From the NCBI RefSeq assembly GCF_000178835.2, contig NC_015275.1, forward strand, positions 1,137,001 to 1,201,000: a DNA stretch of 64,000 nt. The letters are read 5' to 3'. Origin of the DNA: Cellulosilyticum lentocellum DSM 5427. GTDB taxonomy: Bacteria; Bacillota; Clostridia; Lachnospirales; Cellulosilyticaceae. This document shows, one piece after another, positions 33,119 through 62,424 of this stretch. The position numbers were made by a program, and so were the translations under genes. Under the pieces are notes generated by a model. The model was not told the origin of the DNA and did not search any database. It saw only the letters and a program-made list of their open reading frames with translations. Numbering within the stretch: position 1 is the stretch's first letter; each line of letters begins with the position of its first letter.

Positions 33119-33859
33119 TTATTCTGTCATTTGAATCTTTTGTTTGTAACGATAGCTAGGACCATTGCACGTGATAATCTTACTGTTATGTATGAGCCTA
33201 TCAATGATGGCAGTAGTCATGCGTTCATCATGAAAGACCTTCGCCCATTCTTTGAACTCAAGGTTTGTAGTCACAATGATCGATCCCTTTTCATAGCGTT
33301 CTGAAAAGATTTGAAACATCAGTTGCGTGGTATCAGCAGAAAGCTCTACATAACCTAGTTCATCAATGATGATCAAATCTATCTTTTTAAGTTTGTCTAT
33401 AAATCGGCTTAATGCCAGGCTTTCCTGCATTTCTACAAGTCTATTACCTAATGAGGCAGCGGTAAAGAAGGTTACACTAAAACCACGTTTGCATGCCTCA
33501 ACACCTATCGCTGTGCTTAGGTGAGTTTTTCCAACACCAGAGCCTCCAATAAGTATGAGGTTTCCGTATTCTTCAATAAATCTACAATCCATAAGCTTTA
33601 TGATCTTATCTTTAGGGATAAAAGGAGCCTCTAAAAAATTAAACTCATCTATTGTTTTTACTGTAGGAAAACCGGCCTTTTTACAGAGTCTGCTAAAGCG
33701 ATTGTTTTCCCTTGAAAGTAGTTCTTCATCTAATAAGCCATTAAAGAACCGTTCATAAGTCCATTGCCCAGAAGTTGCCGTATCAAGTATTCTATCATAG
33801 CACTTGTTGATTCCAGCAAGTTTACAGAGTGTTAGTTTCTCTTGCAATGCCTCATCCAT
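33119..33859 (-). CDS. istB: IS21 transposition helper ATPase IstB
   Basis: A 246-residue AAA+ ATPase with Walker A GGSGVGKTHLS (about residue 105), Walker B IDLIIIDELGYV and sensor-like IIVTTNLEFKEW, matching IstB. It is a DnaC-like partner that guides IstA to target DNA. A longer frame starts at 33871, but that ATG touches the AAAAGGAG site with no spacing, whereas the ATG at 33859 gives the usual MDEALQEKL start of IstB. Its first 8 bases overlap the end of istA, so it is translationally coupled. No frameshift or stop is seen. Confidence 0.93.
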   Translation of the reverse strand: MDEALQEKLTLCKLAGINKCYDRILDTATSGQWTYERFFNGLLDEELLSRENNRFSRLCKKAGFPTVKTIDEFNFLEAPFIPKDKIIKLMDCRFIEEYGNLILIGGSGVGKTHLSTAIGVEACKRGFSVTFFTAASLGNRLVEMQESLALSRFIDKLKKIDLIIIDELGYVELSADTTQLMFQIFSERYEKGSIIVTTNLEFKEWAKVFHDERMTTAIIDRLIHNSKIITCNGPSYRYKQKIQMTE

Positions 33860-35366
33860 TACTATAAGCATCTCCTTTTAACAAAGCATCATACATTGAA
33901 GGCGGTGCCGTTATTGAGACCACGTTTAAGGCTTCTAATGGCATCTTTGACATTGTTGTTACTTTGTGTATTTTCTCGTTCTGTTTGAAGCGTATATAGC
34001 TCTTTAATTCCTCCAAACTATAATTATTCTTCTTAGATAGATCATTTAAAAAATGTGCTATCTTATGGATACCATGACTTTCTGTAAGTTGAAGAATCTT
34101 GATGTATTCCTTCGTACCTGCATTCTTTGAACAACTTCTTGCTTGCAACTGTTTGTGGTAGGTTTCAAAAATAGGTGGGAGGTGCCAGTTTTGCATAAAC
34201 TTTGCATCTTCAATAGCACCTGGTTTTTTAGCTAATAAAGGGAGGTAATGGTAGGGATTTAAGGCTTCATCATGTTTTCCCAAAAGCCTTGAGTGTTTTG
34301 CAATAAGCTGATCTCGGTATGAGATTTGAACTTCAAATGGATAGATTTTTACGATCACTTGTTTTCCTACATAGCTGCTTGGAACGGAATAATGGTTGGT
34401 ATCACAAGAAACTAATGCATAGCAATCAACCTTTGCCATCATGATCTTGGAAACATCATAAAAATCTTTAAGTGGCATAAACGCATGATCTTGTTCTTCT
34501 TGTAACAGATCTTTCCAAAGGATTCCTTTTACTTTTTGGGTATTCATTCTTCTAACACAAGCATTATGTAATAAAGAGTTGAGTTCGTGATAAGAGTTAA
34601 ATTCTAGGATAGGAATAAAGTAGTTGTTGCGAGTATATTTAACAAGATTTTCGATCATACCTTTTTCATGGCCACTTGCAGGATTACAGAAAACGGCATC
34701 AAAACCATAGTAAGCTTTAAATTTAAGAAAGGCATCTTGAAGGACACGTCCACCATCTGGTTTGATTTCTTTCACGGCTTGTTTAAGGTTATCGAAAACG
34801 ACTTTCCGTGGAATACCACCAAAGAACTGGAAAGCACGATTAAGACCTTCTAAGAAGTACTCTGTACTTTGCCTTGGAAAAGCTGTGATAAACTCACATT
34901 TACTGCACTTAAGTTTTGCACAGAAGACGATGACCTTTGTCTTTTTCCCCTGATAAATGGTGCTCATTTCACCGAAGTCTACTTGCATGGTACCCTCTGT
35001 TGGCAAGAGCTTTAAAAAGGCATCTTCCTGAGTAAGTGATAGTTCATCTTCCAGCTGCCTTGTTAACTCTGTAAAAGAAGAATAGCATCCTATATAGCCT
35101 TCATCTTGCATTAGCGTAAACATACGCGTCTTAGTTAAGCGCTCTTTGCGAGGTTTTATCTTATTATCTAAAAGTATTGCTTTAACTTTAGCTATAAAAT
35201 CACCATTAACAGGCTTTTCTTTAACGTTCTGCCGTTGATAAGTATTTGAATTCCTTTCAATAGCCCGTTTTACAGTATTTCGATGAATCATAAGCCTTTT
35301 AGCGATTGTACGCTGAGATAAACCTTCATTAAAATACAACATTCTGATATAATCATACTGTACCAT
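33852..35366 (-). CDS. istA: IS21 transposase IstA (DDE recombinase)
   Basis: A 504-residue transposase with an N-terminal helix-turn-helix (NEGLSQRTIAKRLMIHRNTVKRAI), then a DDE integrase core: TMQVDFGEMST (first Asp), RKVVFDNLKQAV (second Asp) and GHEKGMIENLVKYTR (Glu), and a C-terminal Mu-transposase-like domain. All three catalytic residues are present. The frame can begin with GTG at 35375, but TTGGAG lies 8 bp before the ATG at 35366, which I prefer. The gene appears functional. Confidence 0.93.
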   Translation of the reverse strand: MVQYDYIRMLYFNEGLSQRTIAKRLMIHRNTVKRAIERNSNTYQRQNVKEKPVNGDFIAKVKAILLDNKIKPRKERLTKTRMFTLMQDEGYIGCYSSFTELTRQLEDELSLTQEDAFLKLLPTEGTMQVDFGEMSTIYQGKKTKVIVFCAKLKCSKCEFITAFPRQSTEYFLEGLNRAFQFFGGIPRKVVFDNLKQAVKEIKPDGGRVLQDAFLKFKAYYGFDAVFCNPASGHEKGMIENLVKYTRNNYFIPILEFNSYHELNSLLHNACVRRMNTQKVKGILWKDLLQEEQDHAFMPLKDFYDVSKIMMAKVDCYALVSCDTNHYSVPSSYVGKQVIVKIYPFEVQISYRDQLIAKHSRLLGKHDEALNPYHYLPLLAKKPGAIEDAKFMQNWHLPPIFETYHKQLQARSCSKNAGTKEYIKILQLTESHGIHKIAHFLNDLSKKNNYSLEELKSYIRFKQNEKIHKVTTMSKMPLEALNVVSITAPPSMYDALLKGDAYSNG

Positions 35367-35439
35367 CTCGATCACTCCAAATCCCCCCCACTATATAATT
35401 GTTTGTCGTAAAACTAATTATAATGGGGAATGTGATAGA

Positions 35440-59897: not shown

Positions 59898-60713
59898 ATG
59901 AAAATTAATACCAATATGTCAGCTATTAGAACTTTAACAAGTTTGACAAAAGCAAATGGTAGTGCATCAAAAGCAATGGAAAGATTATCTTCTGGCCTAA
60001 GGATTAATAGTGCTGCAGATGATGCAGCAGGAATGGCTATTTCAAGAAAAATGAATACACAAGTTAAAGGATTGGATCAAGCAAATCGTAATGCTATGGA
60101 TGGTATTTCGATGATTCAAACTGCTGAGGGTGCATTAGATGAAGTTCATAGTATGCTACAAAGAATGAGAGAACTATCGGTACAGGCATCTAATGGTACT
60201 TATGAAAATGCGGATAGGGAAACTATTGAACAAGAGATTAATCAGCTTATGCAAGAAATGGAAGCTATGAAGGAACGTACACAATTTAATAAGATGAATC
60301 TCTTAGATGGGAGTTACGAGAATTTTACATTACATATAGGTGCTAATAAGGATCAATGTATGAACATTGATGGGGAGGAGATTAGTATAGAGAATATACT
60401 CACTCCTTTGCAAGGGATTGATATTGTTACAAAAGCAGATGAGGCTATACAGAAAGTAGATGCTGCTATAGAAAAGACTTCTGCAATTAGAGGAAGATTA
60501 GGAGCTTATCAAAATAGATTAGAACACACGGTATCAAATATACAAGTTAGTGAAGAAAATATGACTGCATCTATGTCGCGCATACAAGATGCAGATATGG
60601 CAGAAGAGATGACAGACTACACACAATATAATGTTATTTCTCAAGCAGCGACAGCTATGTTAGCACAAGCTAATCAAAGACCACAACAAGTATTACAACT
60701 TCTTAACTCATAA
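59898..60713 (+). CDS. hag: Flagellin, short D0/D1-only form
   Basis: The 271-residue protein has complete conserved ends: MKINTNMSAIRTLTSL, ERLSSGLRINSAADDAAGMAIS and LDQANRNAMDGISMIQTAEGALDEVHSMLQRMRELSVQASNGTY at the N side, and AIRGRLGAYQNRLEHTVSNIQ, ADMAEEMTDYTQYNVISQAATAMLAQANQRPQQVLQLL at the C side. The middle is only about 60 residues, so no D2/D3 surface domain, as in Bacillus Hag. Ribosome site AAAAGGATG. No sigma-28 promoter was found right before it; it may be read through from the 56486 gene. A strong terminator follows. Other flagellin copies may exist elsewhere. Confidence 0.93.
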   Translation: MKINTNMSAIRTLTSLTKANGSASKAMERLSSGLRINSAADDAAGMAISRKMNTQVKGLDQANRNAMDGISMIQTAEGALDEVHSMLQRMRELSVQASNGTYENADRETIEQEINQLMQEMEAMKERTQFNKMNLLDGSYENFTLHIGANKDQCMNIDGEEISIENILTPLQGIDIVTKADEAIQKVDAAIEKTSAIRGRLGAYQNRLEHTVSNIQVSEENMTASMSRIQDADMAEEMTDYTQYNVISQAATAMLAQANQRPQQVLQLLNS

Positions 60714-61100: not shown

Positions 61101-61346
61101 ATGAATGGGGATTTAGTGATTTTTATATGTATAGGAATATGTATTGCTATTTTAGTATGGATACTATTTGGAAAACAGATTTTTAATATTATTATTAATG
61201 GAGTGGCAGGTTTTATCATTATTTATTGTATTAATGGATTATTACCGGCTTATGCTATAGGTATTAATCTGTTAACTATGGGCGTTGCAAGTCTACTTGG
61301 AATTCCAGGGATTATTACATTGTATATTATATCAATGATGATATAG
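61101..61346 (+). CDS. bofA: Pro-sigma-K processing inhibitor BofA
   Basis: The 81-residue membrane protein has two or three hydrophobic segments and the BofA pattern: VWILFGKQIFNIIINGVAGFIIIYCIN followed by LPAYAIGINLLTMGVASLLGIPGIITLYI. In Bacillus, BofA holds back the SpoIVFB protease so that sigma-K is activated only when the forespore is ready. SpoIVFA is not in this window. ATGGAGGAAG precedes the ATG. It is the last gene of the ancestral recR-yaaL-bofA block and lies directly before the DnaA-box cluster. Confidence 0.9.
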   Translation: MNGDLVIFICIGICIAILVWILFGKQIFNIIINGVAGFIIIYCINGLLPAYAIGINLLTMGVASLLGIPGIITLYIISMMI

Positions 61347-61349
61347 GTG

Positions 61350-61534
61350 TGTTGATAATTTGTGGATAAGTTTAATAAATGTGGTGATAACACATGTAGA
61401 AAAATAATCTGAAAAGATGTTGATAATGTGGATAATATATTTTTTTAACTATAGAAGCTTGTAAATATAAGGAATAAAATATTGACAGTTATTCACAGAT
61501 GTGTTAATATAAATGTGGATATAGGTGTGGAAAA
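61350..61534. promoter_or_regulatory. Cluster of DnaA-box-like sites
   Basis: Perfect TGTGGATAA (complement of TTATCCACA) at 61361-61369 and 61427-61435; TTATTCACA (fits TTATNCACA) at 61489-61497; one-mismatch copies TGTTGATAA at 61350-61358 and 61418-61426, TGTGGATAT at 61514-61522 and TGTGGAAAA at 61526-61534. Six of seven point the same way, and an AT-only stretch (61432-61447) lies among them. No dnaA, dnaN or rpmH is near, so this may be an origin-like or DnaA-titration/regulatory site rather than the main oriC. Confidence 0.65.
61482..61510 (+). promoter_or_regulatory. Strong promoter with a DnaA box in its spacer
   Basis: Consensus TTGACA (61482-61487), exactly 17 bp, TAATAT (61505-61510). 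The spacer contains TTATTCACA at 61489-61497, and two more DnaA-box-like words lie at and just after the expected start near 61517. No coding start is close enough for a normal leader. Confidence 0.6.
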
Positions 61535-61613
61535 AATATATCCAGTTGATTTGACGTAAGTATAACATATCAATCCCTTTATGCTCTATAGGCGACTATA
61601 GAGTTCTTTTTTT
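61517..61613 (+). ncRNA. Candidate short RNA or terminated leader, about 97 nt
   Basis: Promoter 61482-61510 predicts a 5' end near 61517. The RNA would start with a stem TGGATATA/TATATCCA (61516-61523 with 61537-61544, 13-nt loop), continue with an unpaired stretch, and end at the 61584-61613 terminator. It contains no open frame with a ribosome site. It fits no RNA family I know. Alternatively it is an attenuated leader for the 61726 gene, 113 bp beyond the terminator. Confidence 0.45.
61584..61613 (+). terminator. Intrinsic terminator of the candidate short RNA
   Basis: CTCTATA and TATAGAG arms (61584-61590, 61597-61603) around GGCGAC, followed by TTCTTTTTTT. Confidence 0.75.
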
Positions 61614-61725
61614 GCAAAATATAATTGAATTAAATAAAACATATTTCCAGATATAGGTATAAAAGCTGTAGCATGTGTATACACTATAACAACGAATGAT
61701 AACGATTATACCTATGGAGGAGTAT

Positions 61726-62424
61726 ATGCATTTATTAGAACGTATTGAAGAATATGTACAAGATATTAAAAAAAACTCTTATATCTATGATATCCAAAAA
61801 GCAGGAATTGAGATTTTTTGTAAATACATTACCAATAGTGGTTTAGATATACGAGAAGAAGATTTAGATAGGCAGATGCTCAATAAGTTATTGCTCTATT
61901 GGTTACCTCGTAACAAAAAGTATTTGAGTGATGTAGAAGCTTATCAGATTATTTATACGATACATGATATATATTATTATATAAAGAAAAGGAATAAACA
62001 AGAGGAGGTAGAGACTCCTACTATTTTGGAAAGCTATGGACAAGAATATATGAGAGTATATAAGGCCAAAAATATGCTTTTGAAAATGACTAAAGACCCA
62101 GTTGTCTCGGTTAATCCTATTATTATTGCATTAGACAAATACAAAGAAAAGAAGAAAAAAAATAATTATACAGACATTGCTACTACGTATGAACAAGCCG
62201 TTTTTGAAGTTCAAGAATGCAAAGAAGGGGGACAAGTTATTTTAAATAAATTGGGACAAAGTAAACCATATAAACTGCTACTAGAGTATCCTACTTATAA
62301 ATATTTACGAGTAGGAGATATACTACATGCTGTTATTAAACGTAAATTATTTTATGTTTATTGGGAGGTAGAAGAATTAAAATTTTATTATCTACCACAA
62401 GCACAGGAATTTCTAGTATTATGA
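61726..62424 (+). CDS. Protein of unknown function, 232 residues
   Basis: I do not recognise this protein. Residues 1 to about 95 are helical with many Tyr, Ile and Asp (RIEEYVQDIKKNSYIYDIQ, LLLYWLPRNKKYLSDVEAYQIIYTIHDIYYYI); then a charged linker and an IVNPIIIALDKYKEKKKK segment; the last 70 residues look beta-rich (VILNKLGQSKPYKLLLEYPTYKYLRVGDILHAVIKRKLFYVYWEVEELKFYYLP). No membrane segment or metal motif. The frame opens at ATG 61696, but the TGGAGGAG site at 61714-61721 points to the ATG at 61726. It lies behind the DnaA-box region, whose promoter would have to read through the 61584 terminator to reach it. Confidence 0.7.
   Translation: MHLLERIEEYVQDIKKNSYIYDIQKAGIEIFCKYITNSGLDIREEDLDRQMLNKLLLYWLPRNKKYLSDVEAYQIIYTIHDIYYYIKKRNKQEEVETPTILESYGQEYMRVYKAKNMLLKMTKDPVVSVNPIIIALDKYKEKKKKNNYTDIATTYEQAVFEVQECKEGGQVILNKLGQSKPYKLLLEYPTYKYLRVGDILHAVIKRKLFYVYWEVEELKFYYLPQAQEFLVL

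Follow-up and report, generated by a model that had tools for sequence, protein, structure and literature searches.

A cluster of DnaA boxes beside bofA in Cellulosilyticum lentocellum: a probable DnaA-controlled promoter of a small RNA gene

Results

Genes and features at the locus

The window considered here is a stretch of 64,000 nucleotides, positions 1,137,001-1,201,000 of the closed 4,714,237-bp genome of Cellulosilyticum lentocellum DSM 5427; unless given as chromosomal, coordinates are counted from its first letter. The gene bofA lies on the plus strand (61101..61346; Pfam PF07441, E 2e-10), with its stop at 61346. On the same strand, at 61726..62424, is a gene for a family-specific protein of 232-242 aa (hereafter the 242-aa gene) that belongs to no Pfam family and has homologues in 18 of the 24 Cellulosilyticaceae genomes; its predicted structure, of moderate confidence (pLDDT 78), is helical in the N-terminal part, has a beta domain at the C-terminus and gave no significant match in the PDB. 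In one relative (G005) this gene appears broken.

Directly after bofA, seven DnaA boxes are found within 185 bp: two are TTATCCACA, one is TTATTCACA and four carry one mismatch, all of them where the initial annotation of this DNA had placed them, and six of the seven share the minus strand, as it had also noticed. An upstream tandem pair, TTATCCACA-AA-TTATCAACA, occupies 61350..61369 on the minus strand (TTATCCACA at 61361-61369 and TTATCAACA, with one mismatch, from 61350), and a second upstream pair, TTATCCACA-TTATCAACA, occupies 61418..61435 on the same strand (TTATCCACA at 61427-61435, TTATCAACA from 61418); the AT-rich stretch described within the cluster is present at about 61434-61455.

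The remaining three boxes are arranged on a promoter. A -35 element TTGACA (61482..61487, plus strand) and a -10 element TAATAT (61505..61510, plus strand) are separated by a 17-bp spacer with a TG upstream of the -10, that is, a near-consensus promoter of the extended -10 type, and the boxes lie on and around it. The perfect TTATTCACA box (61489..61497, plus strand) is located within the spacer and is inverted relative to the other six. A one-mismatch box, ATATCCACA (61514..61522, minus strand; TGTGGATAT on the plus strand), covers the inferred transcription start, and a second one-mismatch start-site box, TTTTCCACA (61526..61534, minus strand; TGTGGAAAA on the plus strand), follows at 12 bp from the first. 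Consequently five of the seven boxes precede the predicted transcript, whose first bases are overlapped by the other two.

The predicted product is a small non-coding RNA of about 100 nt (61514..61613, plus strand), deduced from the positions of promoter and terminator, from conservation, from the single match per genome and from the lack of a conserved ORF. It contains a conserved 16-nt motif, ACATATCAATCCCTTT (61565..61580, plus strand), which we propose as the seed from a comparison of the relatives' elements, and it ends in an intrinsic terminator, GCTCTATAGGCGACTATAGAGT TCTTTTTTT (61583..61613, plus strand), kept at the equivalent place in all relatives while its sequence changes. The candidate thus appears to have the features of a trans-acting small RNA gene: its own promoter, an intrinsic terminator, a length within 50-250 nt and no conserved ORF. 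A search of the predicted RNA against Rfam gave nothing over the gathering score. A small peptide encoded by the frame running over the boxes (VDIGVD..) was considered and rejected, because the ends of this frame differ between relatives and no frame is conserved.

Between the terminator and the 242-aa gene, at 61646-61689, a further stretch, TTTCCANATATAGGTATAAA-N16-TGTATANANTATAA, is conserved in the relatives having both; it resembles a promoter in its own right, possibly one read by a sporulation sigma factor.

Density and chromosomal position of the cluster

In the 390-bp intergenic region, eight boxes with at most one mismatch were counted against a mean of 1.4 in 3,000 dinucleotide shuffles (p about 3e-4), and three perfect boxes against 0.08, a number that none of the 3,000 shuffles attained. 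When 200-bp stretches were scored with two points for each perfect box and one for each one-mismatch box, the cluster reached 10, by far the highest value in the 64-kb window, where the next unrelated stretch has 3; by the same score the oriC of C. lentocellum has 10 upstream of dnaA and 9 in dnaA-dnaN. The box total across the whole window is at chance level (105 vs 103 +/- 11), so the cluster is local. The locus therefore has the composition of a DBC outside oriC, namely several TTATNCACA boxes with at most one mismatch in a few hundred bp, away from dnaA.

The gene dnaA is outside the window, as had been said, at position 352 of the contig, and the cluster, at chromosomal position 1,198,350, is therefore about 1.2 Mb from oriC and dnaA, one quarter of the way round the chromosome; the idea that this region is fairly near oriC, formed earlier, is wrong for this genome. 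GC skew is positive in all 2-kb bins of the window, with no sign change, and neither a skew switch nor an initiator gene is found near the cluster.

Similar clusters elsewhere in the genome exist and are few, as judged by a pattern search that does not yield a complete ranked list. A second cluster outside oriC, at chromosomal positions 3,798,973-3,799,061, has an invariant 30-bp core, TGTGGATAATGTGTATAACTTTGTGCATAA, with three boxes at 9 and 12 bp; it is located upstream of an ABC-transporter-like gene and is conserved in two genera (G001 C21, G007 C44). No matching promoter-RNA unit was seen there, and the clade thus has other extra-oriC clusters of different make-up. Another candidate DnaA-binding region is a group of five boxes where a murC-like gene begins (chromosomal 1,259,829-1,259,930). 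Pairs of the form TTATCCACA-N3-TTATNCACA occur at chromosomal positions 976,226, 1,101,864 and 3,031,755, near repeated genes; two of the three are a few kb from near-identical genes for DnaA-family ATPases, perhaps mobile elements carrying their own DnaA boxes. The window itself contains an IS21-type istA/istB-like gene pair (33119-35375), whose IstB-like protein is the DnaA-family match at chromosomal position 1,170,266.

Conservation in the Cellulosilyticaceae

The boxes are kept in close relatives, which was the check proposed when the cluster was first noticed. With a sequence model, promoter, boxes, 16-nt motif (ACATATCAATCCCTTW) and terminator were found to recur together, one copy each, in 11 of the 24 Cellulosilyticaceae genomes searched, and the unit is missing in several of them. 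It was read downstream of bofA in six further genomes of the family, it was reached through homologues of the 242-aa protein in a genus here called g9 (G014, G017, G019, G021), and a diverged form is present in G008. Cellulosilyticum and Sporanaerobium share the same sequence of the 16-nt motif, from which the g9 copies depart by one terminal base. Exact matches of this 16-mer outside the family (G132, G245, G301, G339) were discarded as chance, since boxes and promoter are absent there.

The individual elements are retained to different degrees. The -35 reads TTGAC[AG] in all 12 Cellulosilyticaceae elements read, and the -10 is conserved in relatives. The first start-site box is present in the same number (12/12, the C. 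lentocellum copy in this tally being read by eye) and in 21 elements of a second family described below, at 32-34 bp from the start of the -35. The second start-site box is TGTGGATAA in most relatives and is decayed in G019. Orthologues of the spacer box read TTATGCACA, TTATACACA, TTATGAACA or TTATTAACA, most of the variation falling on the N of TTATNCACA, which is T, G or A; the box is TTATNAACA in g9 and Sporanaerobium and is absent in G005. Further upstream, a pair is found at the place equivalent to 61350..61369 in most Cellulosilyticum relatives and other boxes instead in some, and near the place of 61418..61435 most relatives have a single TGTGGATAA/TGTGGATAT box.

The distance between the unit and bofA grows to about 2.4 kb in G019 and about 5.6 kb in G017, which indicates that the unit is not part of bofA; on this comparison it is an independent RNA gene, and its adjacency to bofA is real in most genomes. 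Apart from the terminator, the RNA of this family has little structure, and no covariation was seen in it.

A second family with the same arrangement

Among 30 bofA loci chosen regardless of boxes, one outside the Cellulosilyticaceae had the same box pair; it belongs to a second family of the same order, here called f17 (G039), and both families consist of anaerobes. In f17 the unit is found directly after bofA in about 22 genomes, with the following layout: a TTGACA promoter, a start site covered by tandem TGTGGATAA boxes with a 12-bp period, a further TTATNCACA box, and the RNA, which forms a hairpin with a CCCC loop (GATAAG..CCCC..CTTATC) followed by a covarying terminator. The gene downstream encodes a rhomboid-type protein (motifs identified by eye) unrelated to the 242-aa gene.

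A genome-wide pattern not tied to bofA, consisting of TTGACA followed at the appropriate distances by two GTGGATA boxes, was searched in 246 genomes of the order. It matched in 16, all of them Cellulosilyticaceae or f17, and a reversed control gave 0; all eight f17 matches are directly after bofA. When 196 genomes from across the class were searched, the only match of the strict pattern was an f17 genome already known.

Of 58 f17 genomes, 28 gave a match to a covariance model of the unit, about 22 of them a strong one, and boxes after bofA are present in those inspected by eye; the model contains the boxes, so its matches favour loci that have them. It also found G207, where promoter, hairpin and terminator are kept and the boxes are lost, which indicates that the model is not blind to box loss and that DnaA control is not essential everywhere. 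In the f17 RNA the proportion of paired cells is 96.1%, and nine pairs show two-sided changes vs 3.8 after shuffling, a value reached by none of 500 shuffles; the compensatory changes are mainly in the terminator.

Throughout the two families the spacing of the boxes is nearly constant, with a period of 12 bp in 30 of 32 elements and 32-34 bp from the -35 to the first box. In f17 the boxes are nearly invariant and the 3-bp gap between them is free. The later f17 box fits TTATNCACA and varies mainly at its N (A or G on the box strand), being TTATACACA in 9 of 21 elements and TTATGCACA in 4 of 21, with few one-mismatch copies, and it therefore matches the specificity of DnaA. The DnaA proteins of these genomes have the canonical recognition motif GG[RK]DHTT.

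Discussion

DnaA as the predicted regulator

We give a probability of about 0.7 to the reading, based on sequence comparison, that the cluster serves as control region for a DnaA-regulated small RNA gene. A DnaA-controlled regulatory region was one of the possibilities raised by the initial annotation; it is supported at the level of sequence and has become specific, a small RNA gene promoter with conserved boxes. The RNA gene is probably repressed by DnaA and its product is probably trans-acting. To the wider proposition, that a family of bofA-adjacent trans-acting small RNAs exists in two bacterial families, is repressed by DnaA and relays DnaA activity to unlinked mRNAs rather than acting as a dnaA antisense, we would assign even odds.

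In the mechanism that we propose, DnaA would bind the boxes and block RNA polymerase, as suggested by the overlap of the boxes with the start site and with the region between -35 and -10. Low or titrated free DnaA would then allow synthesis of the RNA and high DnaA would repress it, and the upstream boxes of the Cellulosilyticaceae may add cooperative binding or titration. The RNA would then pair with its targets through an unpaired C-containing stretch, AUCAAUCCCUUU in C. lentocellum and the CCCC hairpin loop in f17, and the most likely pairing sites, by analogy with FsrA and RoxS, would be ribosome-binding sites. The conserved 5' end of the Cellulosilyticaceae RNA (GGAU..GGUGUG) may pair with the 16-nt motif and mask it.

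The comparisons made here found no conserved target mRNA, and near-matches of the motif complement in the C. lentocellum genome gave no convincing start region. The dnaA mRNA was not supported as a target, its start region ranking only 28th of the 143 start regions tested. A 13-nt perfect complement of the motif is present at 60412-60424, inside a neighbouring flagellin-like gene; this candidate was rejected, since the complement was not found in the relatives' loci examined.

Other explanations of the cluster

The sites datA and DARS are defined biochemically, by an activity in DnaA-ATP hydrolysis or in DnaA-ADP reactivation. A titration or reactivation site, of the B. subtilis DBC type or similar to datA/DARS, would act on initiation at oriC, adjusting it by the binding of free DnaA, with the RNA being incidental; we consider this unlikely as the function of the cluster. 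Its box density equals that of oriC, the second conserved cluster at 3.799 Mb has no such RNA, and in B. subtilis the joint removal of six clusters outside oriC causes early initiation (PMC5295017). However, the best-conserved boxes are those locked to the promoter and the start site, the upstream ones being less fixed, and the conservation of the boxes is equalled by that of promoter, RNA motif and terminator, none of which titration requires. Of the datA/DARS-like site suggested earlier, titration as a side effect is possible, and the conserved promoter, terminator and RNA are left unexplained by it.

It is quite unlikely that the unit is a leader or attenuator, in which the DnaA-controlled promoter and the terminator would serve the downstream gene, expressed only by read-through. 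In three genera the unit does immediately precede a homologue of the 242-aa gene, even where bofA is 2-6 kb away (G019, G017), but the f17 unit is alike with an unrelated rhomboid-type protein gene downstream, no alternative antiterminator pairing was found, and the separate promoter-like stretch between terminator and gene is conserved.

A very improbable explanation is that the repeats work in the RNA, TGTGGATAA representing GGA-type sites recognised by a protein that binds RNA, for example CsrA, and the match of TGTGGATAA to the DnaA box being a coincidence. The 5' end of the RNA does contain two or three GGA motifs, spaced by 12 nt, and in the Cellulosilyticaceae conservation extends to the gap between the boxes (AGG/AGA), for which pairing with the 16-nt motif is conceivable; against this, the gap is free in f17, the later f17 box has no GGA and still keeps TTATNCACA, and some boxes lie outside the RNA altogether, ahead of the start or, in inverted orientation, within the spacer. 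Finally, a second or accessory replication origin, proposed earlier and suggested by dense boxes next to an AT-rich stretch, has next to no chance of being correct, given the absence of a GC-skew switch across the window and of an initiator gene nearby, the canonical dnaA-dnaN origin elsewhere in the genome, an AT-rich stretch not specially conserved among relatives and a conserved core that consists of promoter and terminator.

Comparison with known systems

DnaA-regulated promoters and DnaA-box clusters are already known, as is one DnaA-repressed antisense RNA, reported in 2025 at the dnaA locus itself. This is ArrA of B. subtilis, whose promoter carries two boxes, the first between -35 and -10 and the second past the -10, and is repressed by DnaA in vitro (PMC12112137). 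ArrA resembles the DnaA-controlled RNA proposed here in being a non-coding RNA of an endospore former and in having a vegetative-type promoter whose boxes lie within the spacer and immediately past the -10; it differs in that it is located at oriC, runs antisense to the 5' region of dnaA and exceeds 1 kb in vitro (PMC12112137), whereas the candidate is about 100 nt long, lies 1.2 Mb from dnaA and has its own conserved motif and terminator. The candidate is not antisense to the dnaA 5' region, and its duplex with the dnaA start is unremarkable (rank 28/143).

The B. subtilis DnaA-regulated promoters and DBCs, such as sda, ywlC, trmE, ywcI and vpr (PMC5295017, PMC4447404), are likewise dense groups of boxes outside oriC, mostly at intergenic promoters, and sda ties replication to sporulation; unlike our cluster, they control protein genes or titrate, and the available text of these sources lists none at bofA. 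Small RNAs connected to the replication and cell-cycle circuit are also known in EcpR1 of Sinorhizobium and CcnA of Caulobacter. EcpR1 differs in being under stringent-response control and in repressing the dnaA and gcrA mRNAs (PMC4414408), and CcnA in being presumably CtrA-activated and within the origin (PMC8959179); regulation by DnaA is reported for neither in the available portions of these papers. FsrA and RoxS/RsaE are, like the candidate, short Gram-positive small RNAs with C-rich stretches, theirs pairing with ribosome-binding sites; they differ in their regulators, Fur for the former and ResD/Rex for the latter, and the candidate has no Rfam match (PMC7430163 for FsrA and RoxS/RsaE). 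Our search of the literature found nothing linking bofA, DnaA and a small RNA, nor anything on a DnaA-controlled trans-acting small RNA.

A link of the RNA to replication control, division or sporulation is at present a guess. If the proposed regulation is true, the combination of promoter, tandem boxes and terminator would be a ready motif for finding further DnaA-controlled RNAs, and DnaA would gain a second, post-transcriptional arm reaching unlinked genes, offering a testable route by which replication status could be coupled to division or sporulation in the Lachnospirales, which include many gut anaerobes.
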